This document shows positions 26,557 through 33,014 of a stretch of 37,973 bases of DNA, piece by piece. The position numbers and the translations under genes are program-made. The stretch comes from Steroidobacteraceae bacterium (lineage in GTDB: Bacteria > Pseudomonadota > Gammaproteobacteria > Steroidobacterales > Steroidobacteraceae), in NCBI GenBank assembly GCA_022865595.1, contig JALHTE010000287.1, positions 1 to 37,973 of the forward strand, read 5' to 3'. Below the pieces are notes generated by a model. It had not been told where the DNA came from. It ran no database searches and worked only from the letters and a program-made list of their open reading frames with translations. Every line of letters begins with the position of its first letter. Position 1 is the first letter of the stretch.

Positions 26557-26632
<76 letters not shown>

Positions 26633-26679: not shown

Positions 26680-26753
26680 GGCTAGGTGGCAGAGTGGTCA
26701 TGCAGCGGCCTGCAAAGCCGTGTACGCCGGTTCGATTCCGACCCTAGCCTCCA
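26680..26753 (+). tRNA. cysT: tRNA-Cys (GCA)
   Basis: GGCTAGG/CCTAGCC acceptor stem, anticodon loop CTGCAAA, T-loop TTCGATT, encoded CCA. Confidence 0.97.
26740..26753 (+). repeat. Direct repeat copy 1 (tRNA-Cys 3' end), putative att core
   Basis: gaccctagcctcca, identical to 29197-29210. Confidence 0.75.
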
Positions 26754-28325: not shown

Positions 28326-28763
28326 CTACTGAATTCTCTTCGAGACGGGTCCCGCCTGACGGCTCTCCACGCCAGTATTGGTATACGTTGCGACGGTGAA
28401 ATACCACGTGCCAGCCGATAAATTCTCAATATGCATGGTCGTTGAACCTGGCGACGCGACATCCAAAGTCTTCGTTAACCCACCCGCCGACTGCCCGTAG
28501 CGAATCGTATAGCCCGCAATATTGGTCAGGGGCGAGCCGTCCTCGTTCTGGGTCGGGGCTGTCCAGGTCAGGTCCGCGAAACCGATGACGGAGACTGGTG
28601 TCGCGGCGGAGGGCCTCACCGGATCTGGGTACTGGGACGGAGTCGCGGTCGAAAGCAACCCGCCTGTGGAATCGCCAGACCAGTTACCGCATCCGGCCAG
28701 CGTTGCGATCAGCGCGCATACGAAAGCTCTGCTTGTCTTTCTCCCGAAAATTGTGCGCAACAT
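28326..28763 (-). CDS. Small lipoprotein with one fibronectin type III-like domain
   Basis: Lipobox ATLAGC in MLRTIFGRKTSRAFVCALIATLAGCGNWSGD; FnIII-like DLTWTAPTQNEDGSPLTNIAGYTIRYG...AGTWYFTVATYTNTGVES; upstream AGGAGGAA. Confidence 0.82.
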   Translation of the reverse strand: MLRTIFGRKTSRAFVCALIATLAGCGNWSGDSTGGLLSTATPSQYPDPVRPSAATPVSVIGFADLTWTAPTQNEDGSPLTNIAGYTIRYGQSAGGLTKTLDVASPGSTTMHIENLSAGTWYFTVATYTNTGVESRQAGPVSKRIQ

Positions 28764-28867
28764 TTCCTCCTACGGTCGTCATGTCCGTCGTCAATCGGAT
28801 TCCGCGTCCGGATTTCGAGGGACGTCGAGGATTGCAGCCGGCGCGTGGGGGCTCTCGGAGGAGATCA

Positions 28868-28968
28868 GGCGCAGATCCGGCAACCCCGCTATCCATGGCT
28901 CGAGAGTGGCCAGGACCGGAAGCTTTGCGTCCCCGCCTTTCGGCGGGTATGCCATTTACGGACGCGCC
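28868..28968 (-). ncRNA. Cyclic di-GMP-I (GEMM-I) type riboswitch upstream of the FnIII lipoprotein gene
   Basis: Minus-strand RNA: GGCGCGUCCGUAAAUGGCAUACCCGCCGAAAGGCGGGGACGCAAAGCUUCCGGUCCUGGCCACUCUCGAGCCAUGGAUAGCGGGGUUGCCGGAUCUGCGCC. Stem CCCGCC-GAAA-GGCGGG, GGGACGCAAAGC core, UAGCGGGGUUGCCG end and closing GGCGC/GCGCC all fit the GEMM-I layout. Confidence 0.85.
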
Positions 28969-29313: not shown

Positions 29314-29799
29314 CTAGTCCTCCAGGCACCCTACGTAGAGAGCGATCAGGGTGACCATTGCGCCGTAGCGAAACGCGCTCTGCAGGGACAGGTCTCGCAG
29401 TACATCTGAGCGCCACATCTCGAACCATGTTTCGCCGATAACGATAAAGCCGCCGAAAAGCAGCAGCATGGCAACGCCACAACCTGCCAGCGCGGGTCTC
29501 TTCGCCACGGCAAACACTGCCGCATCGCCGGCCCGCGTTCGCCACATCTGCACAGCGCCGACAGAGCACAGGATGCCTGCGGCCAGCTTCGTCAGCATGA
29601 TCATCAGCGCTCCCATCCATATGACGACCGGACTGGAGGTTGACCTCCAGCTTTCAGCCCCGCCTTCAAAAGTGGACATCGAAGCCGCTGCGCCCACCGC
29701 GCCCATGGTTCCGTCCCAATCCGTGGCGTTTCCGAATGCGCCCAGCAGGCTCCATAAGGCCACAGATACGATCAGCAGGATTTTCGTCATTCTCAACAC
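29314..29799 (-). CDS. DUF2165 family small integral membrane protein
   Basis: MTKILLIVSVALWSLLGAFGNATDWDGTMGAVGAAASMSTFEGGAESWRSTSSPVVIWMGA..., several TM helices. Confidence 0.83.
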   Translation of the reverse strand: MLRMTKILLIVSVALWSLLGAFGNATDWDGTMGAVGAAASMSTFEGGAESWRSTSSPVVIWMGALMIMLTKLAAGILCSVGAVQMWRTRAGDAAVFAVAKRPALAGCGVAMLLLFGGFIVIGETWFEMWRSDVLRDLSLQSAFRYGAMVTLIALYVGCLED

Positions 29800-29877: not shown

Positions 29878-30957
29878 CTATTCGCACTTCGCGCGCCATC
29901 GCCTCGGGCTCATGCCCGTCCACAAACGGAACGCGCGCGAAAATACAGCGGCGTCGGCGTAGCGTAGAGCCTCGGCGACCTGTGAGATCTTCAGTTGGGT
30001 ATCGCGCAACAGGTGAAACGCAAGCTCGCGTCGCACGTCGTTGGTGAGGCTACGCACCGTCGCGTCTTCCTCTGCAAGGCGACGGCGCAATGTGCGCGGG
30101 GCTACATTGAAGAGTCGTGCCAGCTTCGGCGTGGAGCCGGAGCTCGAAAAGAGCATTGCACGGATCGCACGGTGAACCTGCCGAGAGAACGGCACCGGGT
30201 CGGACGCCTCTTTGGACTGAATGGCCCGAGCTGCCGCGTTGAACGCATTGCTGCTGGCTCCTGAGATGGGCTGGTCGAGCCAGCGCGAATCGAAGATGAT
30301 CGCCGAGAGGTCCGCGTCGAACTCGAGGTTCTCGCCGAACACGGCCCGGTACGGCTTCAGCTCCGTCGGCCGCGCCCGCGAAAGCCGCACCAGTAGCGGC
30401 CGCCAGGACGGTCCGCAGAGTTCGCGCAGCAACAGGTACTGCATCGTGAGGCCGCCGTCCTGGATGTATTCCGCCCCTGGGATGACGCCGGCGAACAGCG
30501 CGTAACCCAGTGCGGTGCGCCCGTCGCCGACGTCAAGCATGAACGACATGGCGCCCTGGTCGGTGACCTGCAGGTGAGCCGTGCCGAGTGCCAGTGCCTC
30601 GCGCACTGACGTGCAGTTCTTCATGAGGCCGCCCAGTTCGCCCAGCGAGGTCGCGTCGAAGCGCCGGCCGACCAGCAGTCCGAAATGTGGGCAGTCCGTG
30701 TGGCTGGCGCAGCCTTCAAGCAGCCTGCCGAGCACGTCGCTGGGCAGGCGCGCTTCTGGATCGTCGAAGACGTCGGGGGCTGCGCCGGCAGTCGCCAGCA
30801 GTTCAGGAAAATCGAGGCCAAATTCCCGGGCCAGTGTCCGGATCTGCAGCACTGTACCGACACGGATATCGCCGGGAAAAGTCGATGCGGGGTCCCACGG
30901 CCTTGATGGACGCCTGGATCTCTTGCCGCGAGAGGCCGCCTGGTTCGTTGTCGCCAT
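29878..30957 (-). CDS. AraC family transcriptional regulator (arabinose-binding-like N-terminal domain)
   Basis: C-terminal HTH: LARLFNVAPRTLRRRLAEEDATVRSLTNDVRRELAFHLLRDTQLKISQVAEALRYADAAVFSRAFRLWTGMSPRRWRA. Start proposed at MATTNQAASRG. Confidence 0.9.
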   Translation of the reverse strand: MATTNQAASRGKRSRRPSRPWDPASTFPGDIRVGTVLQIRTLAREFGLDFPELLATAGAAPDVFDDPEARLPSDVLGRLLEGCASHTDCPHFGLLVGRRFDATSLGELGGLMKNCTSVREALALGTAHLQVTDQGAMSFMLDVGDGRTALGYALFAGVIPGAEYIQDGGLTMQYLLLRELCGPSWRPLLVRLSRARPTELKPYRAVFGENLEFDADLSAIIFDSRWLDQPISGASSNAFNAAARAIQSKEASDPVPFSRQVHRAIRAMLFSSSGSTPKLARLFNVAPRTLRRRLAEEDATVRSLTNDVRRELAFHLLRDTQLKISQVAEALRYADAAVFSRAFRLWTGMSPRRWRAKCE

Positions 30958-31195
30958 CGATCTGACCCGTTTGGCCTTAATTGCAAAGTATACCTGCAGC
31001 AACTTTAATAACCTGCGCTCCGGCGCACGAGGATTTTCTGAATTCCCGGCGGTTCGCCAGCGTGGGACACAGGCAGTACCATCGCGTACCGTCCTCGCGG
31101 GCGACGGTTGGTTGCTGCCGACCATGCCGGATTGCGGCACACCTGGCTCTCGAATAATTGATCATCAACCAACTGATCATCCACGGAGATGACCC

Positions 31196-31495: not shown

Positions 31496-32337
31496 TGCCG
31501 TCGAACGCGCGTACAGGCCGTGGAGCGGCAGTGCTCGCTTCGGCGGCGCTCGTCCTGCTGCTGCCTGCTCCGGGCGGCAGCAGCATCGCACTGGCGGCCG
31601 CTGCAGCGGCGCCAGCGATTGCCCCGCCTGCGATTGAACTTGAGCCCAGGGCCCTCGGCATCCTGAAGGGAGCCTGCGACACGCTGGCCGCGGCAAAGAC
31701 GGTCTCCTTCAAGGCAGTCGTAGCAGAGGAAAGCCCAAGCCGGCTGGGCCCGCCGCTGCTGTATTCGAGTCGCTATCAGGTCGTGCTGCAACGTCCCGAC
31801 AAGCTGCGCATCCTGAGCCCGGGTGATGGGCCGGCGACGGAGTTCTACTACGACGGCAAGTCGATGGCAGCGTTTGCGCCGAAGGAAAACTACATCGCGC
31901 GGGCCGACGCTCCGCCGACGATCGACGCGGCGCTGGACCAGGCATTCACCAGGGCGCAGATCTATTACCCGTTCATGGACCTGCTCGACGCGGATCCATA
32001 CAAGAACGTGCTGGCGGGCCTGCGCGTGGCGTTCTACATCGGCGAGTCGGAGTCCGTGGGCGGTGTGAAGACCTACATGGTCGCGTACGCGAACGACCAC
32101 GCCTTCGTGCAGGCCTGGATTGGCGTCGATGACAAGCTGCCGAGGCGGATGCGAGCGATCTATCGCAAGGACCCGGCCATGCTGCGCCACGACATGGACA
32201 TTAACGACTGGAAGCTCGGCGCGCCGCTCGCGGCCGGGACGTTTGCGGTGCCAGAGGCTGCGAAGAAGGCGCTGCCGATTCCATTTGACCGACCTGACGA
32301 CGGTGCGGCGGTGGCCGAGCCGGCGCCGAAGCCGTGA
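31492..32337 (+). CDS. DUF2092-like periplasmic protein
   Basis: Start MMPSNARTGRGAAVLASAALVLLLPAPGGSSIALA; LYSSRYQVVLQRPDKLRILSPGDGPATEFYYDGKSMAAFAPKENYIA. Confidence 0.77.
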   Translation: MMPSNARTGRGAAVLASAALVLLLPAPGGSSIALAAAAAAPAIAPPAIELEPRALGILKGACDTLAAAKTVSFKAVVAEESPSRLGPPLLYSSRYQVVLQRPDKLRILSPGDGPATEFYYDGKSMAAFAPKENYIARADAPPTIDAALDQAFTRAQIYYPFMDLLDADPYKNVLAGLRVAFYIGESESVGGVKTYMVAYANDHAFVQAWIGVDDKLPRRMRAIYRKDPAMLRHDMDINDWKLGAPLAAGTFAVPEAAKKALPIPFDRPDDGAAVAEPAPKP

Positions 32338-33014
32338 GCTGGGAGATGACCATGAAGAACATCGTGATAACGGTCGGTGCGGTGCTGGCAATCGGCCTGG
32401 CACCGCAGTTCGCCGGGGCCTATACGCACCGGAATCGCGCAGGCGGCAGCACCGAGCATGCCTACGGGCAGGGCACTGAGCATACGAACGCATACGGCGG
32501 GAGCACGGAGCATGCCTACGGAGGCGGAACCGAGCACACCAACATGTACGGCGGGTCCACCGAAGGCAAGTACGGCGACGGCGCCGAGCACACGAACGTG
32601 TACGGTGGTACGACGTCGGCTCGGTACGGATCGGGCGCGTATCACTCCACTCCCTACGGTGCGACGGTGTACGCACCTCCGCCGCCCGGCGCATACGCAT
32701 ATCACCCGCCCGCCACGGTCAATTACTACGGCGCCGGTTGCTACAACTGCGGTGGCTACAGCACGGCGGGCGCCGTCGCAGCCGGCGTGGTCGTGGGCGC
32801 CGCTGTGGGTGCGGCTGCGGCCGAGTCCGCAAGCACGACGACGACTACCACCACTACCACGACCTACGTCGTCGGGGACGTGTATCCGACGCTTCCGAGC
32901 GGATGCGCAATGCCCAAGGTTGACGGCACGACGTACTACCTCTGCGGCAACACCTGGTTCCAGCCGAGCTACGGCGCGAACGGCGTGTACTACAAGGTTG
33001 TAACGGCCCCCTGA
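32334..33014 (+). CDS. Secreted Gly/Tyr/Thr-rich tandem-repeat protein
   Basis: Signal MKNIVITVGAVLAIGLAPQFAGA; four 18-aa repeats; C-terminal YPTLPSGCAMPKVDGTTYYLCGNTWFQPSYGANGVYYKVV. Start may be 32346 or 32352. Confidence 0.75.
   Translation: MSWEMTMKNIVITVGAVLAIGLAPQFAGAYTHRNRAGGSTEHAYGQGTEHTNAYGGSTEHAYGGGTEHTNMYGGSTEGKYGDGAEHTNVYGGTTSARYGSGAYHSTPYGATVYAPPPPGAYAYHPPATVNYYGAGCYNCGGYSTAGAVAAGVVVGAAVGAAAAESASTTTTTTTTTTYVVGDVYPTLPSGCAMPKVDGTTYYLCGNTWFQPSYGANGVYYKVVTAP
32442..32657 (+). repeat. Four 54-bp (18-aa) coding tandem repeats
   Basis: GGSTEHAYGQGTEHTNAY / GGSTEHAYGGGTEHTNMY / GGSTEGKYGDGAEHTNVY / GGTTSARYGSGAYHSTPY. Confidence 0.9.

Follow-up and report, generated by a model that had tools for sequence, protein, structure and literature searches.

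The best-described relatives of the element analysed here are Vc1 (in the gbpA leader) and Vc2 of V. cholerae, members of Rfam family RF01051. Vc2 contacts c-di-GMP through G20, A47, and C92, while Vc1 has neither an obvious terminator nor an obvious anti-Shine-Dalgarno (anti-SD) sequence, and its expression rises with c-di-GMP (PMC4744006). The minus-strand RNA that we describe in the window (the whole stretch analysed, 37,973 nucleotides from a Steroidobacteraceae bacterium) resembles them in its P1/P2/P3 junction, GAAA-capped P2, and G/A/C contacts; all lead genes for surface or secreted proteins, and the window leader, like that of Vc1, has no obvious terminator. It differs in host order, in target gene, and in the upper part of P3, which is a simple bulged helix. 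The c-di-GMP-I-GGC family (RF03167) has a similarly short P3, and the window RNA scores above its gathering cut-off; however, it differs from that family at one pocket base, and RF01051 scores it equally. In Geobacter, the GEMM-Ib regulon comprises several switches per genome, some in tandem, ahead of pilM and fibronectin type III (FnIII) proteins (PMC6456294, PMC9262584, PMC13194489), an arrangement also seen here, but the window RNA has the c-di-GMP-type G at position 20. The Geobacter regulon includes the FnIII surface protein KN400_1971.

GEMM riboswitches ahead of surface proteins and pili, and ahead of an FnIII gene in Geobacter, have already been reported (PMC13194489, PMC6456294), and the window riboswitch itself is an ordinary addition to a large, well-studied class. 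In the open-access literature that was searched, only two papers, both on Geobacter, bring together GEMM riboswitches, c-di-GMP, and fibronectin type III, and no paper names both Steroidobacter and riboswitch; within that literature, a lineage-wide FnIII regulon under GEMM-I appears undescribed. We consider it highly probable that, in the window, the 5' leader of a gene for a surface lipoprotein contains a GEMM-I riboswitch (c-di-GMP class I), with c-di-GMP as the ligand expected from family membership.

Aptamer sequence and structure

A covariance-model search of the genome (a 3.09 Mb assembly of 393 contigs, the window being one) gave an RF01051 (c-di-GMP-I) match on the minus strand at 66.7 bits against a cut-off of 35; with the classical contact bases kept, this upholds the GEMM-I assignment made in the first-pass annotation. 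At E <= 1e-4, RF01051 had matches in 0/14 control genomes, which rules out a chance match. When the window was compared with 4227 Rfam families, RF03167 scored 66.6 bits (cut-off 59, E = 9e-14), so that the two families are effectively tied at 28875-28962. The whole-window scan, in which an overlapping lower-ranked match from the RF03167 clan was suppressed, returned three matches above cut-off: two tRNAs and RF03167 at 28962-28875. The Rfam matches span 28875-28962/28963 (minus strand), and adding P1 extends the element to 28868-28968. The features of the locus are as follows.

28868..28968, minus strand: aptamer of the GEMM-I (c-di-GMP class I) riboswitch, with its P1 helix (Rfam matches and predicted fold)
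28959..28968, minus strand: 5' strand of P1, GGCGCGUCCG, with partners CGGAU (28879-28875) and GCGCC (28872-28868) (predicted fold)
28953, minus strand: G, equivalent of Vc2 G20, classical c-di-GMP contact (alignment)
28932..28947, minus strand: P2 hairpin CCCGCC-GAAA-GGCGGG, tetraloop at 28941-28938 (Rfam alignment, fold, and covariation)
28926, minus strand: A, equivalent of Vc2 A47; G in the RF03167 consensus (alignment)
28882..28924, minus strand: P3 arm, upper part UCC-UGGC/GCCA-U-GGA (sequence and alignment)
28880, minus strand: C, equivalent of Vc2 C92 (alignment)
28764..28867, minus strand: expression-platform region, without an intrinsic terminator (sequence scan and fold)
28864-28857, minus strand: anti-SD-like UCUCCUCC (candidate pairing)
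28771-28766, minus strand: Shine-Dalgarno (SD) sequence AGGAGG (sequence)
28326..28763, minus strand: 145-aa lipoprotein, lipobox LAGC (Cys25), one C-terminal FnIII domain (ORF, Pfam fn3, and homologues)

The motifs first read from the letters, CCCGCC-GAAA-GGCGGG, GGGACGCAAAGC, UCC-UGGC...GCCA-U-GGA, and UAGCGGGGUUGCCGGAU, all lie on the minus strand where they had been placed. The closing pair proposed with them, GGCGC (28968-28964) with GCGCC (28872-28868), is present but is only part of P1, which runs on through GUCCG/CGGAU to give a helix of 10 pairs with a 2-nt bulge in the predicted fold of the window RNA. The P1 of this aptamer is thus strong, although a swap test over 76 aptamers was null, cognate flank complementarity being not above that of non-cognate pairings (p = 0.33). 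P2 carries a GNRA tetraloop, GAAA, and shows covariation across an alignment of 33 aptamers. A single U bulges from the helix of upper P3, which lacks the UAA/UAUG-type internal loop that many relatives have in the alignment; this simplicity probably accounts for the good RF03167 score, and the absence of a receptor-like loop could lower affinity. A regular-expression tally of tetraloop receptors was set aside because the pattern was too strict. Folded as a single sequence, the RNA has an unexceptional energy (z = -1.26), a value that is uninformative by itself; the evidence for the aptamer is that of sequence and structure together.

The FnIII lipoprotein, its relatives, and other aptamers

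The FnIII domain of the lipoprotein scores 27.9 bits in Pfam (fn3, cut-off 25), and we infer an adhesin-like role for the protein. Its ATG lies 111 nt from the end of the Rfam match and 104 nt from the end of P1, in agreement with the target proposed in the first-pass annotation (28326-28763, starting about 105 nt downstream). The gene is monocistronic, with no close same-strand gene downstream. The same-strand genes upstream are a DUF2165 gene (29314-29799) and then an AraC-type regulator (29878-31140); as 345 nt separate the DUF2165 gene from the aptamer, an independent leader is likely. A sigma-70 promoter scan found none.

The choice of target also draws support from the wider family, since GEMM-I-led FnIII genes occur in 41/68 assemblies, which are mostly Steroidobacterales and include Woeseia-like, Rheinheimera, and Thioalkalivibrio records. 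Among 60 relatives, 30 have FnIII-domain homologues and 51 have GEMM-I; homologues in public genomes are mostly from Steroidobacteraceae, including Steroidobacter and Peristeroidobacter isolates, which would place the host in Steroidobacterales. A covariance model (R1) built from 33 aptamers found 43 aptamers at 60 FnIII loci of relatives and 69 at 80 FnIII loci of public genomes. Leaving out the weakest of these 69 for the strand and upstream counts, 65 of 68 lie on the same strand as the FnIII match. For ORFs with a visible leader in the public genomes, an aptamer is directly upstream of 53/93 FnIII ORFs versus 2/282 other ORFs (Fisher p ~3e-36, without correction for relatedness and hence overstating the case, because related genomes are not independent). 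The distance from aptamer to start codon has a median of 124 nt, and the 111 nt in the window is typical. The larger family members consist of He_PIG/Ig repeats followed by an FnIII domain, while short forms of 141-145 aa with their own aptamer are found elsewhere (L118 and L197). It is conceivable, though we hold the idea only tentatively, that FnIII (often He_PIG plus FnIII) lipoprotein paralogues have spread jointly with GEMM-I leaders through Steroidobacterales and neighbouring Gammaproteobacteria as a dedicated surface-protein regulon, most of whose members read c-di-GMP and a few of which (G20A, in genome G007) may read cGAMP. The conserved pairing offers a testable handle on c-di-GMP targets in Steroidobacterales and suggests that the uncharacterised FnIII/He_PIG lipoproteins belong to an attachment or biofilm programme.

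Seven tandem GEMM-I pairs, with the two aptamers about 115-160 nt apart and mostly before a single FnIII-family gene, were also seen (L154, L157, L158, L159, L163, L164, and L137).

The genome of the window has seven aptamers above the RF01051 cut-off. Besides the one in the window, there is an aptamer (contig C237, L003:1281-1364, 82.6 bits) flanked by a penicillin-binding protein 1A-like gene and by pilM, a parallel to the pilM riboswitch of Geobacter. The others precede a TlpA-like redoxin assigned from sequence (C48), a second lipoprotein, encoded where its contig ends (C239), and, on C20, a subtilisin-like protease and a secreted protein; for the C132 aptamer, the target is off the contig or there is no obvious ORF. 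The two C20 aptamers (L006:1501-1586 and L007:1501-1585) are divergent and 3 kb apart, have GGGCCGC for GGGACGC and GCGA loops, and score 56 and 50 bits, above the RF01051 cut-off. With 20 GGDEF and 16 EAL domain matches in its genome, the host is equipped both to synthesise c-di-GMP and to break it down.

Elsewhere in the window, 32334-33014 (plus strand) encodes a secreted protein that has a poly-Thr stretch and in which GGSTEHAYG/GTEHTNxYG motifs recur, and two tRNA genes lie at 26557-26629 and 26680-26750 (plus strand). The second tRNA gene lies partly inside a long ORF called from 26686, and the Kelch-type protein encoded there therefore probably starts further downstream (~26900).

The leader and mode of control

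Among 51 FnIII leaders, we found 0 intrinsic terminator-like sites, and control at translation initiation, or by Rho-dependent termination, is therefore likely; the G. metallireducens pilM switch uses a terminator, whereas none was found in the window leader. Two pairings were considered as the switch and rejected. Constrained folding of the window leader with P1 formed or open gave no clear difference in SD access, either for the anti-SD-like UCUCCUCC against AGGAGG or for P1 GGCGCGU paired instead with ACGCGCC (28846-28840). An SD-masking test of 50 leaders against shuffles showed no trend (p = 0.21). Alignment between paralogues revealed no conserved platform; the platforms of five close orthologues do align.

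We suggest that the nascent leader would fold into the P1/P2/P3 aptamer, and that c-di-GMP would sit in the three-way junction, touching G28953, A28926, and C28880 and locking P1. The locked P1 would then alter ribosome access to the AGGAGG/AUG some 100 nt downstream, most likely at the level of translation initiation (or, alternatively, through Rho-dependent termination), so that the FnIII outer-surface protein would be made in the sessile state. Cd1, with a comparable aptamer, works as an OFF switch. Our lean is towards activation because both Vc1 (PMC4744006) and the Geobacter pilM riboswitch (PMC9262584) are ON switches and because the sessile state, in which c-di-GMP is high, is one that surface proteins fit; on these grounds, c-di-GMP most probably raises lipoprotein output, although the preference over repression is a modest one.

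Ligand pocket and competing explanations

The Vc2 positions were placed through the conserved GGCA, GACGCA, and GCC blocks, and the mapping is our own. In three alignments with overlapping sets of aptamers (n = 33, 43, and 69), the position-47 equivalent is A in 33/33, 42/43 (one gap), and 69/69, the C92 equivalent is C throughout, and the position-20 equivalent is G with few exceptions. In the window RNA these positions are G28953, A28926, and C28880; judged from these bases, it is a classical c-di-GMP-I aptamer. RF03167 is Rfam's top-ranked family at this site, and the upper P3 without a receptor-like loop is like its model, so one could regard the RNA as a c-di-GMP-I-GGC type, a GEMM-I variant whose ligand is possibly other or altered. 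The name "GGC" presumably denotes the pocket triplet G-G-C. The RF03167 consensus is GGGACGCGAA, whereas the window RNA and all aligned relatives have A at the decisive position, so the label is unsupported at its defining base; moreover, RF01051 scores the RNA equally, and the C48 aptamer of the same genome is just as ambiguous (73.2 versus 81.4 bits). We think the GGC type quite unlikely. In GEMM-Ib cGAMP riboswitches, the position-20 equivalent is A. The window RNA carries G there, the c-di-GMP-type base, and position 20 is described as one factor in selectivity (PMC9262584), which makes it very improbable that the RNA senses 3',3'-cGAMP, even though the Geobacter GEMM-Ib riboswitches govern surface and electron-transfer genes (PMC6456294), one Geobacter GEMM riboswitch precedes an FnIII gene (PMC13194489), and a paralogue in G007 carries A at this position.

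The window aptamer could also have arisen by duplication of the leader of a paralogue and be decaying, so that it no longer exerts control, its lipoprotein being a shortened remnant without He_PIG. Most homologues are indeed longer and have He_PIG/Ig repeats, the upper P3 is unusual, and neither the constrained folding of the window leader nor the 50-leader test found a switching mechanism. Against this, the conserved core and pocket bases are intact save for variation common to relatives, the ORF is intact, with an SD, a lipobox, and an FnIII domain that clears its cut-off, and the short forms at L118 and L197 keep their own aptamers. Decay is therefore unlikely, and we retain the reading as a c-di-GMP class I riboswitch that controls the lipoprotein.

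The G007 aptamer belongs to the same genus (L140:5578-5664, plus strand, which is the L086 locus on contig C268) and reads CACTAGCAAACCC, with A at the position-20 equivalent; it precedes a secreted He_PIG-like/FnIII protein and is a possible natural cGAMP-type pocket in the lineage. Another aptamer, on the minus strand of L108 (genome G013, contig C154:1824-1908), has C at the position-20 equivalent, is otherwise canonical, and has an FnIII lipoprotein downstream.
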